From: Bifidobacteriaceae bacterium
GTDB lineage: Bacteria > Actinomycetota > Actinomycetes > Actinomycetales > WQXJ01
Length of the DNA stretch: 64,000 nt
Direction: 5' to 3'
Assembly (NCBI GenBank): GCA_031272885.1
Contig: JAISSX010000036.1
Span: 1-64,000, forward strand
A model generated the notes under the pieces. That model ran no database searches. It had not been told where the DNA came from and saw only the letters and a list, made by a program, of their open reading frames with translations. Below, in pieces: positions 20,321 to 59,328 of this stretch. The position numbers were made by a program, and so were the translations under genes. The number at the start of each line of letters is the position of its first letter. The first letter of the stretch is position 1.

Positions 20321-20845
20321 ATGAGCGAGAAATTCGACGAGGCGGCCCAGGCCGCCGCAGAAGTGACCGAGACCAGCGAACTGCCGCTGGAAGCAACTGG
20401 GCTGGCTGAACAGGTCCAGGAGGAGGCGCCGGCCGCAACGACACCGCTGCCGAGTTTGGCCGCCGAACCAGTGGCGGCCGTGGCCAGCGCAGACGCGACG
20501 GCCTCCGCTATGGCCAGCCCCCTGCCGGGCGTGACCGCCCCTGGGTTTGGCGCGGCCCCTACGGTGACCGCACCGGCGGTGGCGGCCGCGGCACCGGCGG
20601 TGGCGGCGGCCCCCGGCCCCTACCAGCCCCAGTTCTGGGCCGGACCGGCGCCGGTCAAGACCGGCCCCCGGGTTGGGGTGATCGTCTGGGGCTTCATCAT
20701 CATCGCGATGGCCGTCTGGATCATCGCGGTCGCCAGCGGCTTCATGATCGACGGCCAGTTGGCCCTGATCATCATCCTGGCCGGTGCCGGGGCGGCCTTG
20801 ATTCTCAGCGCCTTGATCGCTGCCACCAGGCGCAACCGCACCTAG
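20321..20845 (+). CDS. Small membrane protein, unknown function
   Basis: A 174-residue protein with a disordered Ala/Pro/Glu N-terminal half and two membrane helices near the C-terminus (about 118-140 and 145-167), ending TRRNRT. It starts 17 bases after the PspC gene with GGAGA upstream, so it is probably in the same operon. No family was recognised. Confidence 0.7.
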   Translation: MSEKFDEAAQAAAEVTETSELPLEATGLAEQVQEEAPAATTPLPSLAAEPVAAVASADATASAMASPLPGVTAPGFGAAPTVTAPAVAAAAPAVAAAPGPYQPQFWAGPAPVKTGPRVGVIVWGFIIIAMAVWIIAVASGFMIDGQLALIIILAGAGAALILSALIAATRRNRT

Positions 20846-20909: not shown

Positions 20910-21090
20910 GGGGGTTACAGGGGACGGTTCCGTGTAACATGTTGCAGTGCTACTGCAACATGTGTCACGGAACCGTCCCCTGTAACCCCCGGAACCGTCC
21001 CCTGTAACCCCGGAACCGTCCCCTGTAACCCCCGGAACCGTCCCCTGTAACCCCCGGAACCGTCCCCTGTAACCCCCGGAACCGTCCCTC
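20910..21090. repeat. Long palindrome followed by 22-bp tandem repeats
   Basis: Perfect 25-bp inverted arms (20910-20934 and 20966-20990) surround a second 12-bp perfect stem (ACATGTTGCAGT/ACTGCAACATGT around GCT). The right arm then repeats in tandem: units starting GGAACCGTCCCCTG lie at 20969, 20991 (21 bp), 21012, 21034 and 21056, with a broken sixth at 21078. The arm sequence is of the REP-like GGGACGGTTC type seen near Y1/RAYT transposases in other bacteria; no such transposase is in the window. It separates the PspC operon from glgP. Confidence 0.9.
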
Positions 21091-33001: not shown

Positions 33002-34969
33002 GTGTCTGACTATGGATTCCCCACATCGGTGCGGGGCTATGACCGTCAGGCGGTAGATCGTCAGTTGGAGAACCTGGAGCAGAACCTGTCCCAGGCTCAG
33101 AGCCAGGTTGACGAACTCGAATCGCGGGTAGCCGCCCTGTCGGCCGAGTTGAGCGAGGCGCACCGCCAGCTCAGGGAGGCCGAACGGCCCAGCTATTCGG
33201 GTCTGGGTGCCCGCATCGAACAGTTGATGCGGTCGGCCGAAGAGCAGTCGATGGACGTGCTGAACCAGGCCCGGTCGCAGTCTTCGGCGCTGCTGGCCCG
33301 CACCAAGCTGGAAACCGACCAGTTGAAGGCCCAGGCGGAGAACGAAGTGGCCGAGATGCTGGCCACCGCCCGCCGTGAGGCAGAAGAGGTGCAGGCGGCC
33401 GCCATGGCGGAGGCGGAGGCCGAATTGACCAACGCTTCGCGCCGAGCGGAAGAGATGGTCGGTTCAGCGGAACGCGAAGCGGCCCGGGTCATGGGTGGCA
33501 TCGCCTCGGAAGAGGCCGAGCGCCGCGCCGCCCTGGAACGCGAGATCGCGGCCCTGACCGCCTCGGTGGAGCGCGAAACCACCGAACTGCGCGTGACGGC
33601 GGAACGCGAAGCGGCCGAGTTGCGCTCGGCCGTGGCCGTCGAGGTGGCCACCCAGCGCGAAGACGCCGAGCGTTACGCCACCCAGTTGCGCAGCGCGGCC
33701 GACCAGGAAACGGCCGCCCTGCGGCTGGCCACCGACCAGGAAACGTCGCAGCTCAGGGCCGATGCCGAGGACTACTCGGCACAGACCCGCGCCACTGTGC
33801 AGCGCGAGGTGGCCGAGTTGCGCTCGGCGGCCGAAAATGAGGCCTCGCAGCGTCGCAGCGCGGCCGACCAATACTCCCAGCAGGTGCGTTCCAACGCGGA
33901 CCAATACGCGCAGCAGCTCCGGTCCGATGCCGAGCAGTACGCCCTGCAGATCCGCTCCGAGGCGGAGCATTACGCGCAGCAGACCCGGGCAGACGCGGAA
34001 CAGTTCGAAACCACCACGCGGGCCGCAGCCGAACTGGCCGCCCAGGAAATGCGCAACACGGCGGAGAAGGAAGCCACCGACCTGCTGTCCGCCACGCAGC
34101 GCGAAGCCATCGAGCTGAAGGAAAGCTCGGACCGCTACGCCGCCAAGACCAGGGCCGAAGCCGAACGGTCCGCCTCGCAACTGTACGAAGAGGCGCGGGC
34201 CAAGGCCGAGGAACTGACCACCCGGTCCGAGCGCGAAGCCTCCACGCTGTTGGCCGAAGCCAAGAAGCAGGCCGCGGCGCTGACCGAACGGGCCGAGGAG
34301 TGGAAGGCCGAGGCCGAGATCGAGATCGCCCAACGCATCGAGGCGGCCGAGGCCGCCAACGCGGAGCGGTTCGAATCGTCCAAGGCCAAGGCGGACCGCC
34401 TGATCGCCGAAGCCAACGCCCGGGCCGAAGAGGCTGAAGAGCGGGTGGCTCAAGCGCTGGCCCGGGCCGAGAAGTTGCGCCACGACGCGGACACCCAGGC
34501 GGCCGATCTGCTGGCCAACGCCCGCCGCAACGCGGATCGCGTGCTACAAGACGCCCGCAGCTTCGCCGAGCGCACCTTGACCGAGGCCGTGGAAGAGGCC
34601 GAACGCGAGCGCATCGCCGTGCAGCGCCAGGTGGACGATCTCAACCGGCAGCGCGAGTCCATCACCGGCTACCTCGAGGAACTGCGTGGGCTGCTGGGCT
34701 CAACGCCGATGCCGAACATCGAGGCCGTGCTGGAGCAGGCGCCGCCCGAGCCCGCCTACGAGCAACCGGCCTACGATGCCGCCGCCGCCTACCAGGCCGG
34801 CTACGCCGAGCCGGCCTTCGACCCGTCGGTGGTTTACGCCGAAGAACCAGTTCAGGCCGCTCCCAGCGTGGACGCTGGACAACCCACCGACCTGTTCGCC
34901 TACGCTGAGGCTGAAGCTGACGAATCACCCGAGATCGTCAACGACGAGGATGAGGCCGAAAAGCCCTAA
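33002..34969 (+). CDS. DivIVA/Scy-like hendecad coiled-coil protein
   Basis: A 655-residue protein, almost all coiled coil. The N-terminus (FPTSVRGYDRQAVDRQLENL) has the DivIVA-type GYDxxxVD motif that binds curved membrane. From about residue 210 to 460 the sequence repeats in units of 11 residues (for example YAQQLRSDAEQ, YALQIRSEAEH, YAQQTRADAEQ), i.e. a right-handed hendecad coil as in Streptomyces Scy. The acidic C-terminus is disordered. Scy organises polar growth in mycelial actinobacteria; a polarity or cytoskeletal role is inferred. GTG start with an ideal GGAGG six bases upstream. Confidence 0.8.
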   Translation: MSDYGFPTSVRGYDRQAVDRQLENLEQNLSQAQSQVDELESRVAALSAELSEAHRQLREAERPSYSGLGARIEQLMRSAEEQSMDVLNQARSQSSALLARTKLETDQLKAQAENEVAEMLATARREAEEVQAAAMAEAEAELTNASRRAEEMVGSAEREAARVMGGIASEEAERRAALEREIAALTASVERETTELRVTAEREAAELRSAVAVEVATQREDAERYATQLRSAADQETAALRLATDQETSQLRADAEDYSAQTRATVQREVAELRSAAENEASQRRSAADQYSQQVRSNADQYAQQLRSDAEQYALQIRSEAEHYAQQTRADAEQFETTTRAAAELAAQEMRNTAEKEATDLLSATQREAIELKESSDRYAAKTRAEAERSASQLYEEARAKAEELTTRSEREASTLLAEAKKQAAALTERAEEWKAEAEIEIAQRIEAAEAANAERFESSKAKADRLIAEANARAEEAEERVAQALARAEKLRHDADTQAADLLANARRNADRVLQDARSFAERTLTEAVEEAERERIAVQRQVDDLNRQRESITGYLEELRGLLGSTPMPNIEAVLEQAPPEPAYEQPAYDAAAAYQAGYAEPAFDPSVVYAEEPVQAAPSVDAGQPTDLFAYAEAEADESPEIVNDEDEAEKP

Positions 34970-34998
34970 TCCTGCCTCAAGCAAAGGATCCACGGCCC

Positions 34999-36708
34999 AT
35001 GGTGAACCAGGACCCCAGCACTGGTAGCCCCGCCAGGTCCGAGGCCGAGAGAGCCGCGGAACTGGAGGCTGCGCTGGCGCAGGCTAGGGCGCAGACCGCC
35101 GCGCTGATCCAGCGCGGCCAGGCGCTGGCCAGTGAACTGGACCAGGTGCGGGCCCAACTGGCCGATTCGGCTTGGCGCCAGCCCGGCCGGCGCCAAGGCC
35201 AAGTGGCCGGTTTCGCCGAAGTCCTGGAATCCGAGGTGCGCGGCCGGTTGGATTCGATCCAGGCCGACGCCCAACGTATCCGTGACGAAGCGGACATGAC
35301 GGCACAGCGGGAACGGGACGCCGCCCAGGCGGCCCACGCCAAGCTGATGGACCTGGCCCGCCGCGAGATCGAGGCCCTGCAATCCCAGACCGCCGCCCAA
35401 GCCCGCGCCATCAGGGAAGACGGCGCCCGGCAGGCGGCGGCGGTGTTGGCAGAGGCCGAACAGAAAGCCGCCGAACTGCGGGATTCAGCCAACAAGGCCG
35501 CCTTGGAGCGGCGCCAAGTGGTGGTGCGGGAATCATCCGCCCTGTCCCAGTCCGCCCAGCAGCAGGTGGACGCCATGCGGGCACAGGCGGCGGCCGAGGC
35601 CGATGCCGTGTTGGGCGCCGCGAAGCAAGAAGTCAACGCCATCATGCAGGCTTCTGCCACCCAGTTGGAAACGGCCGTCAGTCAGGTCGAGGCCGAGGTG
35701 GACGCGATGCGCCGCCAGGTTGAAGAAGCCATGGCCCAGGCCCTGGAGGCCGTGCGGGTCCAAACCCAAGCGGTGCGGGACGCGGCCGATGATGAGGCCC
35801 AGACCATCCTGGGTGAGACCCGCCAATACATCGACGCCCTGTTTGCCGATGCCGAACACTACGGCCTGCAGCAGCGCAACCAGGCGGCCGACGAAGCCGG
35901 CCGCCTCCGGGCCGACGCCCAGGCGGCCTCGCGCGTGGTCCGCGGCGAGGCCGAAGCCTACTCCCGGGCGCTGCGCCAAGAGGCCGACTCAGAAGCCTCC
36001 CTGGTGCGCTCCGACGCCTTGGCCTACGCCGCCTCGGTGCGGGACGAGGCCGAGCGCGACGCCGCCACCTTGACGGCCCACGCCAGGGCCGAATCGGCCC
36101 AGATCAGGGGCGAAGCCTCGACCCAAGCCGCCACCACCCGCCAAAGCGCGGACGAGGCAGCCACCGCCATGGTGACCGAGGCCCGCCACCACTCCGAGGT
36201 GGTGCTGACCGAAGCCCGCCGCACCGCCACCGCCGCCCTCGAAACCTCCCGCACTGAGGCCGACAAGATAGTCTTCCGGGCCCGCGAAGAACTGGAGCGG
36301 GTGGAACGGGCCATCACCGCCAAGACCGAAGCCAACCTGGCCCGCATCACGGAAGAACGCGACCGCGCGGTCAAGGAATCCGAACGGATTGTGGACGGGC
36401 CGGCCGAACAGCGGGCCCAGGCCACCCAGCGCCTACTGGAAGCCCAAGAGCAAGCCAGCCAGGCCATCGCCCACGCCGAAAACTACGTTGCCATGTTGAC
36501 CGAGGGCGCCAAGGAGGAGGCGGACGCGATCCTGGCCGCCGCCAACGAAAAGGCCAAGGCCGCCATGGACAAGGCCATCGAACAGGCCGAAGAGCATCGC
36601 CGGGCCTCGCAAGCCCAAATCATGCAGCTGCAGTCGCAGCGCCAGGCCCTGGCCACCTACCTGACCCGTCTACGCGGCCTCCTCTCCCGAGACCTGTCCA
36701 GGCGGTAG
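34999..36708 (+). CDS. FilP-like coiled-coil protein
   Basis: A 569-residue Ala/Glu/Gln/Arg-rich coiled-coil protein that begins 29 bases after the Scy-like gene (RBS AAAGGA). The 11-residue periodicity continues in the middle (VRDEAERDAAT, IRGEASTQAAT) and the C-terminus ends in LRGLLSRDLSRR, parallel to LRGLLG in its neighbour, suggesting an old duplication. In Streptomyces, filP follows scy in the same order; FilP forms intermediate-filament-like networks. The assignment rests on composition, periodicity and synteny rather than close identity. Confidence 0.7.
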   Translation: MVNQDPSTGSPARSEAERAAELEAALAQARAQTAALIQRGQALASELDQVRAQLADSAWRQPGRRQGQVAGFAEVLESEVRGRLDSIQADAQRIRDEADMTAQRERDAAQAAHAKLMDLARREIEALQSQTAAQARAIREDGARQAAAVLAEAEQKAAELRDSANKAALERRQVVVRESSALSQSAQQQVDAMRAQAAAEADAVLGAAKQEVNAIMQASATQLETAVSQVEAEVDAMRRQVEEAMAQALEAVRVQTQAVRDAADDEAQTILGETRQYIDALFADAEHYGLQQRNQAADEAGRLRADAQAASRVVRGEAEAYSRALRQEADSEASLVRSDALAYAASVRDEAERDAATLTAHARAESAQIRGEASTQAATTRQSADEAATAMVTEARHHSEVVLTEARRTATAALETSRTEADKIVFRAREELERVERAITAKTEANLARITEERDRAVKESERIVDGPAEQRAQATQRLLEAQEQASQAIAHAENYVAMLTEGAKEEADAILAAANEKAKAAMDKAIEQAEEHRRASQAQIMQLQSQRQALATYLTRLRGLLSRDLSRR

Positions 36709-42206: not shown

Positions 42207-42614
42207 CTAGGAAGGAAGCAGTTGGGCTTTGACGCCGGGTAGGTCGCCAAAGCGGGCCCGCTGATCCAATGTGAGCAAGACCCGGTCGGTGGCCGCTGCG
42301 GTGGCCGCCACGATCAAGTCGGCGGAACCACGCGGTACCCCGTTCTGCCTGGTCCAGGCAAGCAGCCGGGCGTGGTGCTCCAATATTGCAGCGTCATAGA
42401 GCAACACTTTGGCAACGTCCAGCAGACTGTCAATGAATCGTTCCATGCGCGGCCGGTGCTGGTCGGTGGCAAGAGCCAGGCCAGCCTTCAGTTCTGCCAA
42501 AGTCACCACTGAAAAGCCAACTTCATCTTCCGGTTCCAGTATTTCTGTGGCAGCCAGGCGGCCGCGTTCCAGGGCAACAATTACGCCCGTGTCGAGAACT
42601 AGCCTTCGGCCCAT
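42207..42614 (-). CDS. vapC: PIN-domain ribonuclease toxin VapC
   Basis: A 135-residue PIN toxin with all four acidic residues: D8 (LDTGVIVALERG), E41 (TLAELKAG), D99 (GSADLIVAATA) and D117 (TLDQRARFGDLPG). It is the classic VapC layout, predicted to cut tRNA or rRNA. Its start overlaps the antitoxin gene by 16 bases. Confidence 0.92.
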   Translation of the reverse strand: MGRRLVLDTGVIVALERGRLAATEILEPEDEVGFSVVTLAELKAGLALATDQHRPRMERFIDSLLDVAKVLLYDAAILEHHARLLAWTRQNGVPRGSADLIVAATAAATDRVLLTLDQRARFGDLPGVKAQLLPS

Positions 42615-42889
42615 GCCAGGCGCTCCAGGTCGCTTGGAATCGGATCTCGGAACGCCAGGACCGCCGACTCGGCGTCGGCGTCAAAGGCGCCGCCCTCCCA
42701 ATCGGCAAAGAAGGCAAGCACCGCCGCGCCGTTGGCGGGGCGCTCTGGCGGCAGAATCTGAGCGACCACTTCCCCATTCTTGGTCACGCTGAAGCGCTCA
42801 CCGGCTTTGGCTCTCTCCAGGACGGCCGCGAAGGAACGACTGGCCTGGGTAGCGGTCACAGTGGTGGTTGGCGGTACGGTCATGGTCAC
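42599..42889 (-). CDS. vapB: Antitoxin VapB (Phd-like)
   Basis: A 96-residue Phd/YefM-fold antitoxin (VTATQASRSFAAVLERAKAGERFSVTKNGEVVAQILPP) paired with VapC. The GTG at 42889 was chosen because a TAATCT -10 ends six bases before it; an ATG two codons later is the alternative. A 13-bp palindrome covers the -10. Confidence 0.88.
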   Translation of the reverse strand: MTMTVPPTTTVTATQASRSFAAVLERAKAGERFSVTKNGEVVAQILPPERPANGAAVLAFFADWEGGAFDADAESAVLAFRDPIPSDLERLAWAEG

Positions 42890-42976: not shown

Positions 42977-43098
42977 CGAAAGGTCAATTCCGTCAATTCG
43001 TCATCCCGGACTTGATCCGGGATCAGGATATAACAGCAGGTCAGGGGCTTGAGATCCCGGATCAAGTCCTGGATGACAAGAACGGAATTGACCTTTCG
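42977..43098. repeat. Nested palindromic element (MITE-like)
   Basis: Outer arms CGAAAGGTCAATTCCGT (42977-42993) and its exact inverse (43082-43098) enclose inner 25-bp arms (43000-43024 and 43053-43077, one mismatch) centred on CCCGGACTTGATCCGGG. The inner arm is a REP-like sequence common in many bacterial genomes. The right outer arm is also the first 17 bases of the long direct repeat at 43082. Confidence 0.85.
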
Positions 43099-43213
43099 CG
43101 CAGGAAAAGTGACCTCTCGTGAGGAAAGGGGGCGGGGGGACAGGGCGGGGCGAGGGGACAGGGCGCGAAGCAAGAGCGGCTAGAAGGGATCGGTGTCGGG
43201 GAAGGGCCAGGGC
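43082..43213. repeat. Long direct repeat R1 (left end of the ascorbate block)
   Basis: This 132-bp sequence recurs at 59202-59328 in the same orientation. The first 54 bases are identical; further on there is a 5-bp indel and about three substitutions. It overlaps the last 34 bases of the downstream-most gene of the block and supplies its last residues (PWPFPDTDPF). Confidence 0.92.
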
Positions 43214-59201: not shown

Positions 59202-59328
59202 ACGGAATTGACCTTTCGCGCAGGAAAAGTGACCTCTCGTGAGGAAAGGGGGCGAGGGGGCAGGGCGGGGGGACAGGGCGCGAAGCAAGAGCGCCTAGAA
59301 GGGATCGGTGTCGGGGAAGGGCCAGGGC
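59202..59328. repeat. Long direct repeat R2 (right end of the ascorbate block)
   Basis: A 127-bp near-copy of R1 (43082-43213) in the same orientation, ending GGAAGGGCCAGGGC. Beyond it, 59329-59476 shows no gene. Confidence 0.92.

Follow-up and report, generated by a model that had tools for sequence, protein, structure and literature searches.

The stretch of DNA analysed here (64,000 nucleotides, hereafter the window; contig C7 of a 2.95-Mb source genome, G000, that is 95% complete in 81 contigs) carries two successive plus-strand genes for long coiled-coil proteins, which we call P1 and P2. An earlier note on this DNA had placed a Scy/FilP-like pair at 33002–36708, and both open reading frames were found there. 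P1 starts with GTG at 33002, with GGAGG ahead of it, and P2 with ATG at 34999; 29 bp separate the P1 stop codon from the P2 start. Judged by sequence, P1 belongs to the FilP family and P2 is a headless protein with a colinear rod of equal length, a constant position beside P1 and a restricted distribution in the sampled genomes.

Table 1. Positions, in the window, of P1, P2 and their parts
Feature	Position	Strand	Basis
P1, FilP-type coiled-coil protein, 655 amino acids, GTG start	33002..34969	+	open reading frame; FilP-head profile match; synteny in many families of the order
P1 head motif RGYDRQAVD, DivIVA-like, residues 11-19	33032..33058	+	sequence; consensus RGYDxxEVD in PMC9858780; PF05103
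P1 first coil, residues 15-60, without hendecad register	33044..33181	+	register scan; AlphaFold2 (AF2) helix from residue 15
P1 hinge RPSYSGLGARIE, residues 62-73, near-invariant in 23 sequences	33185..33220	+	
P1 unbroken hendecad rod, residues 89-429, 31 repeats	33266..34288	+	autocorrelation, register scan
DNA array inside P1 rod, period 33	33869-33999		repeat search of window
P1 family tail DDLNRQRESITGYLEELRGLLG, residues 545-566	34634..34699	+	
P1 C-terminal extension, acidic, proline-rich, residues 567-655, without hendecad register	34700..34966	+	
P2, headless hendecad protein, 569 amino acids, 29 bp behind P1	34999..36708	+	
P2 signature WRQPGRRQGQ, residues 59-68, at place of P1 hinge	35173..35202	+	
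P2 hendecad rod, residues 67-429, single register, weak stretches	35197..36285	+	register scan
P2 family tail MQLQSQRQALATYLTRLRGLL	36622..36684	+	

Hendecad periodicity of the two rods

Identity autocorrelation was scored against shuffles of the same protein, which keep its composition. P1 matches itself at lags 11, 22 and 33 with z scores of 10.8, 9.8 and 9.3, as against 1.2 at lag 7, and P2 does so at lags 11 and 22 with z scores of 6.1 and 4.4, as against 0.9 at lag 7. When the lags were compared with those of Scy and FilP, P1 peaked at 11 and all its multiples up to 66, z falling from 12.6 to 7.1. The hydropathy period is 3.66 rather than 3.5 (3.657 in P1, 3.661 in P2). A leave-out register scan, by which the register was located, found a single phase in P1 from about residue 89 to 429 (31 hendecads, the final window, 397–429, being marginal), with a phase shift from about 430; in P2 one phase runs from about 67 to 429 and is lost or marginal at 210–253 and 386–418. 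Residues 1–60 of P1 lack the hendecad pattern. Given the lag-11 signal and the single hendecad phase, a heptad can be ruled out as the principal repeat in either rod.

The earlier note, which had proposed a periodicity analysis to tell hendecads from heptads, had counted about twenty unbroken hendecads between residues 210 and 460 of P1. The periodicity is stronger than it claimed, but the limits differ, since the repeat starts earlier and ends slightly sooner. The column pattern it described (Tyr or Glu at one edge, Arg in the middle, Ala and Glu/Asp later) is real: over the 15 hendecads of residues 221–385, Ala occupies column 2 in 11, Glu/Asp column 3 in 13, Tyr/Glu column 5 in 13 and Arg column 10 in 13. 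The second protein does share the periodicity, in weaker form. Ala makes up 24–26% of the rods, and unrelated coils, Apolipoprotein among them, match them weakly, which would suit a pattern that is mere low-complexity Ala/Glu/Arg composition, silent on structure or kinship. We give this explanation almost no credence: the lag-11 signals of both proteins survive shuffles that keep composition, head, hinge and tail are specific, and rod length is quantised in steps of 11 across the order.

P1 as a FilP-type protein and the length of its rod

On sequence grounds P1 is of FilP type, having head, hinge and tail in common with Streptomyces FilP. The RGYDxxEVD motif is common to DivIVA, GpsB, FilP and Scy (PMC9858780), and the P1 head fits this consensus with a short N-terminal segment ahead of it. 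Profile–profile alignment (hhalign) with four FilP heads, two from Streptomyces and one each from families f2 and f18, covered residues 1–161 of P1 at 31% identity (probability 99.4, E 5.5e-21; no unrelated-coil control was included). The Streptomyces FilP hinge reads EPSYAGLGARVE as against RPSYSGLGARIE in P1, and across the window and 22 relatives the head residues F6, P7, R11, G12, Y13 and V18 are invariant, as is nearly all of the hinge EAHRQLREAERPxYSGLGxRIE. PF05103 gave P1 28.5 bits in the genome search, over the cut-off, and 25.4 bits in hmmscan, under it. The LRGLLS/LRGLLG ending that the earlier note saw as common to both proteins is real (ELRGLLG in P1, RLRGLLS in P2), but it belongs to a family-wide tail that is also found, in divergent form, in Streptomyces FilP (NVREML) and Scy (RVQDVL).

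FilP (SCO5396 family) resembles P1 in its RGYD head after a short N-terminal stretch, its PSY[SA]GLG hinge, its Ala-rich and hendecad-rich rod, its tail ([RQ]R..I..L..[LV]R..L) and its hinge-to-tail class modulo 11 (197 residues in Streptomyces, 483 in P1). In contrast to Streptomyces FilP, P1 has a rod about 2.5 times longer and an acidic, proline-rich extension behind the tail, and its lag peaks are multiples of 11 only, whereas spacings of 11+7 appear weakly in Streptomyces FilP and clearly in Scy. The gene neighbours differ as well, being a glyoxalase-fold gene and a thiolase in Streptomyces (locus L051), and GlgB, a thioredoxin-like protein, hydrolases and RNase J for P1. A PDB sequence search with whole P1 (E 0.01) gave no match; with the P1 head profile (E 0.1) it returned GpsB (E 0.0037 to 0.075) and a tropomyosin. 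The AF2 monomer of residues 1–170 consists of a loop and a single helix, 15–169 (predicted local distance difference test 87.9, predicted template modelling score 0.38). DivIVA/Wag31 shares the N-terminal DivIVA-like motif, but P1 has 655 residues and a hendecad rod, and the genome encodes a separate Wag31-like protein of 229 residues; with NF050102, the DivIVA/Wag31 equivalog model (cut-off 260), P1 and P2 scored 45.7 and 23.8 bits, both below. P1 is far longer than SepIVA, which has about 250–350 residues according to PMC11571769. The FilP half of the proposed Scy/FilP pair is supported, through the head, hinge and tail of P1, the alignment of residues 1–161 and the Wag31-like protein encoded elsewhere in the genome, and the Scy half is not, P2 being headless, downstream, differently spaced and at 18.8 bits with the Scy model NF041483.

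Hinge-to-tail lengths in the order and in Streptomyces were obtained for the window and for 156 of 165 loci (L008, L010, L011, L021, L071, L076, L077, L083 and L088 gave no value); 100 of the surveyed loci are among the best matches listed for the P1 profile (201 genomes), weak matches being under-represented. The length is 10 modulo 11 in 92 of 129 coded genomes, a count that omits family f7 (four rows, hinge not conserved), the window row and 23 named-contig rows, and that includes Streptomyces FilP (197) and the P1-type genes of family f1 (483), whose five named and nine coded rows in the length table overlap in part. Because genomes that share a lineage are not independent samples, we place more weight on the 38 distinct lengths, from 197 to 1068, which show a power of 9.94 at period 11, as against at most 1.27 at 14 other periods and 0.35 at period 7. 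Exceptions are genus g15 of family f10, where 13 are of class 9, eight of class 1 and a single one of class 5, and some of family f3 (classes 3 and 6, one in class 9); within these classes, lengths again differ by multiples of 11. The rod therefore seems mostly to gain or lose whole hendecads, with the phase between hinge and tail held. In the literature on FilP, Scy, hendecads and rod length (mostly open papers) we found nothing on rods of whole-hendecad length. Such steps offer a test of which part of the FilP rod is informative, namely the hinge–tail phase, and which is free, namely the repeat number. The f10 homologues of P1 with rods of 669–1068 residues fall into two main classes modulo 11, with one outlier (L061, L066, L142, L150, L151, L153, L154, L156, L158, L159, L163–L165, L167, L171, L173, L176–L181).

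P2 and a putative mixed filament

Between the hinge-position and tail anchors lie 488 residues in 12/12 P2 and 483 in 10/10 P1 sequences of family f1; measured back from the tail, W59, at which P2 is anchored, falls level with R62 of P1, and the rods are thus equal, as they are in 10/10 pairs. The equality is one of net length, pairwise alignments holding small compensating gaps. When five separate P1 segments were slid along P2, the highest mean score fell at a common zero offset, which was the best offset in 7, 6, 6, 10 and 10 of 10 genomes, respectively. The RGYD-like head is missing from all 12 copies of P2, for which reason P2 is not filed as FilP, and at the hinge position every copy carries W-R-x-P-G-R-R-x-G-Q. 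The N-terminal profile of P2 aligns with P1 from residue 18, just after the head (probability 93, E 3e-7), and with the FilP heads over the coil only (probability 89, E 2.3e-6).

Among the 297 genomes sampled, strong matches to P2 are found only in family f1. Its N-terminal profile matched 35 genomes: 15 of the 18 of f1 (14 with E no higher than 1.6e-19, plus a partial match at 3e-4) and 20 others at E 1.8e-7 or weaker. Of these 20 matches, 13 fall on the P1 gene and the one in G455 on a different gene; the remaining six, from family f4, were not placed relative to P1. The full-length query matched 17 of the 18 genomes of f1 and, outside this family, 15 of 41, in 13 of the latter on the P1 homologue and in two (G020, G048) on other coils. 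A tblastn search with P2 (E 1e-8) gave no match in 18 named loci outside f1, and blastp (1e-5) against coded loci outside f1 matched only P1 homologues. P2 follows P1 immediately, on the same strand, in 14 of 18 f1 genomes, that is, in all that hold both on one contig; the other four (G002, G008, G014, G017) are less than 78% complete, with one or both genes missing or on different contigs. The P1 of G012 (L008) has an in-frame stop and was left out of length and tree counts.

The P2 frame is free of stops, and in five of five comparisons, one with P2 cut by a contig end, its non-synonymous divergence (dN) is lower than the synonymous one (dS). This holds for all ten values when P1 is included, with dN/dS of about 0.05–0.11 for P1 and 0.2–0.5 for P2, dS being near saturation. 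In the same comparisons amino-acid identity is 0.82–0.93 for P1 and 0.51–0.74 for P2, and the dN of P2 is three to five times that of P1. P2 is thus retained yet far freer than P1, since dN stays below dS while ratio and divergence are higher, and its divergence would suit a partner whose sequence is less constrained.

Alternatively, P2 may be a diverged Scy in a scy–filP pair of reversed order. Like Scy, it is a long hendecad-containing rod encoded beside a FilP gene and ending in a homologous tail; in G018 (f2) and G034 (f18) a headless rod lies upstream of FilP, as in Streptomyces, and Scy orthologues adjoin filP in some non-Streptomyces actinobacteria, according to PMC4255298. Scy, on the other hand, has an N-terminal RGYE and about 1300 residues and lies upstream of filP, whereas P2 is headless, has 569 residues and lies downstream of P1. 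With NF041483 (cut-off 1040) P1 and P2 gave 38.8 and 18.8 bits, both below, and a six-frame search of the genome with this model (E 0.001) found no match. Streptomyces Scy (L051) peaks at lags 11, 18, 22, 29, 40 and 102, with a period of 3.642, near 51/14. At lags 18, 29, 40 and 102 its z scores are 9.1, 8.7, 9.9 and 8.2, as against 2.0, 0.9, 0.4 and 1.3 for P2 and 0.4, 1.1, -0.4 and -1.0 for P1; Scy thus mixes heptads with hendecads, whereas P1 and P2 use multiples of 11 only. Lag 51 is moderate in all three (Scy 6.4, P1 3.0, P2 3.0); a Scy unit of about 51 residues was reportedly described by Walshaw in 2010. The Scy-type context, upstream of filP and beside a methylmalonyl-CoA epimerase-type gene, was not encountered: L051 has the glyoxalase-fold gene and the thiolase, and the window neighbours differ. 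By eye, the P2 tail is closer to that of P1, and in the tail tree (58 rows) a clade of P2 with all Scy had an approximately unbiased test probability (p-AU) of 0.034 and one of P2 with Streptomyces Scy 0.048, both borderline. We do not regard P2 as Scy because the head is missing in every copy, the gene lies downstream, strong matches are confined to f1, the NF041483 score is low and the spacing is not that of Scy. By the tests made, Scy identity proper is rejected for P2, the tail tree leaning the same way, and descent from a diverged Scy seems to us quite improbable.

At L074, 3237–4607 (f2), and L075, 3046–4656 (f18), the gene directly upstream of FilP encodes a headless coiled coil whose tail is Scy-like. 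In the tail tree these rods stand inside the FilP/Scy clade (96/95), not firmly with Scy. As they lie upstream, the pairing of FilP with a headless neighbour is not limited to a single arrangement. Scy is described as confined to Streptomycetales in PMC9858780, and PMC4255298 places orthologues of it beside filP in some other actinobacteria.

P2 is probably a headless duplicate of P1, because its rod matches that of P1 without net indel. By analogy with Streptomyces FilP, P1 would be the FilP of this organism, a parallel dimeric coiled-coil rod forming intermediate-filament-like bundles near the growing pole; it would be positioned through DivIVA, stiffen the pole and tune DivIVA. P2 would have arisen in this bacterial family as a duplicate that lost the DivIVA-like head and kept the tail and a rod of equal net length, through which it may co-assemble with P1 in one lattice where only some subunits carry a head. 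Such dilution would vary the density of DivIVA-binding heads and leave filament spacing unchanged. We infer the duplication, filament formation, polar location, co-assembly and role of P2 from the sequences and from Streptomyces FilP, for which PMC2680258 and PMC6599971 report filaments in vitro and a subapical or polar location via DivIVA. According to PMC6599971, FilP lacking its first N-terminal coil forms filaments of unchanged repeat whose major band is weaker, the C-terminal tail is important for lateral contacts, and FilP reaches its subapical position through recruitment by DivIVA. Head-free co-assembly is plausible because the repeat survives loss of the first coil and the tail serves lateral contacts, and mixed filaments are proposed since all four parts, head, hinge, rod and tail, are present in P1, and rod and tail in P2. 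On balance we lean towards P1 being a DivIVA-associated, intermediate-filament-like polar scaffold and P2 its headless duplicate, co-assembling as a head-free subunit.

Several observations weigh against this interpretation. In the tail tree P2 sits on a long branch and is not sister to P1 (p-AU 0.0498 for a P2+P1 clade, the three groupings tested ranging from 0.034 to 0.0498), and the P1–P2 alignment score of 526 is only moderately above 100 whole-hendecad shuffles of P2 (mean 451, maximum 513). The hhalign scores of P2 stand without an unrelated-coil control. Rods of equal length might be no more than a legacy of the duplication, and in the Cellulomonas group, too, rod length is for the most part constant, at 516 in 16 of 18 named non-family loci. 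A simple ionic score was lowest for P1–P2 in 10/10 genomes when compared with the homotypic pairs; being confounded by intrahelical i to i+4 pairs, it is not used as evidence for co-assembly.

It is also conceivable, though in our opinion somewhat unlikely, that P2 polymerises by itself and has another role, independent of P1 filaments, for example in membrane, wall or nucleoid tethering via its Trp-Arg motif. The conservation of this motif in 12/12 copies, the faster dN of P2 and the ionic score, higher for P2–P2 than for P1–P2 in 10/10 genomes (with the same confounding), would fit such a role, whereas colinear rods of equal length and strict adjacency favour joint assembly. If P2 does copolymerise with FilP, this family would supply a naturally occurring bacterial filament of two subunits, with head density separable from rod length. 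It is tempting to speculate further that P1 and P2 form an obligate, length-matched two-component filament in which P2 sets the density of DivIVA-docking heads, and that the FilP rod is a molecular ruler with hendecad steps. This combination is a long shot, but if true it would be a bacterial counterpart of heteropolymeric intermediate filaments. The literature on FilP and Scy (again mostly open papers) yielded nothing on a headless FilP partner or on equal rod lengths in such a pair.

Growth mode, neighbouring genes and other features of the window

The earlier note proposed looking for a DivIVA/Wag31 partner, and a DivIVA/Wag31-like gene is present elsewhere in the genome. Its 229-residue product scores 110.7 bits with NF050102, below the cut-off of 260, and its neighbours are, by eye, SepF- and YggT-like open reading frames. 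The P1 N-terminal profile matches 201 of the 297 sampled genomes of the order (E 0.001), mostly once and several times in some f16 genomes, the weakest matches being possibly other coils. FilP is widespread in morphologically simple actinobacteria, though missing from most cocci, according to PMC4255298. P1 is therefore no indicator of branching, and the suggestion of asymmetric or branched growth in the earlier note is not supported as a diagnosis; branching was ruled out as a conclusion from gene presence. This corrects an easy over-reading, as a FilP gene does not predict branching. The rarity of FilP in cocci mildly favours a rod over a coccus. Polar growth is likely because DivIVA is present and the only two matches to the MreB model are by eye DnaK and a EutJ-like protein, MreB itself being rejected in this 95% complete assembly. 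A search with PF04686 (SsgA) gave no match, but neither did its controls, and it says nothing on presence. The EutJ-like protein, of Hsp70 type (L090 746–2244, G000:C59), adjoins by eye a microcompartment shell-like open reading frame, which suggests a microcompartment locus in the source genome.

Beside P1 and P2 the window encodes GlgB, a thioredoxin-like protein, two open reading frames without Pfam match and two alpha/beta hydrolases, in this order, and also RNase J. All or part of these neighbours are kept beside the P1 homologue in Cellulomonas, Actinotalea and families f3, f9, f10, f13, f14, f16, f19 and f20; none was found at the fetched loci of f7, f2, f18 and f4, at one of two f16 loci, or in Streptomyces. 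The closest relatives that bear a name are metagenome bins, entered as 'Bifidobacteriaceae bacterium' (L004–L011, L021), presumably, from their names, of termite-gut origin. Their nearest matches outside the group at this locus are Cellulomonadaceae-type contigs with identical gene order, and the Bifidobacteriaceae label of these relatives may be wrong.

A scan of the window for promoters and terminators found no signal exceeding shuffles. A 22-bp unit repeated 5.5 times at 98% (20968–21088, core GGAACCGTCCCC) has an inverted copy at 20920, the whole spanning 20920–21089. It could form a large hairpin downstream of the open reading frame 20321–20845, and we take it to resemble an intergenic element of the repetitive extragenic palindromic type. 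A 132-bp repeat occurs in two copies, 94% identical, at 43082–43213 and 59202–59328, and two small minus-strand open reading frames at 42207–42889 resemble, by eye, a PIN-domain toxin and an antitoxin.

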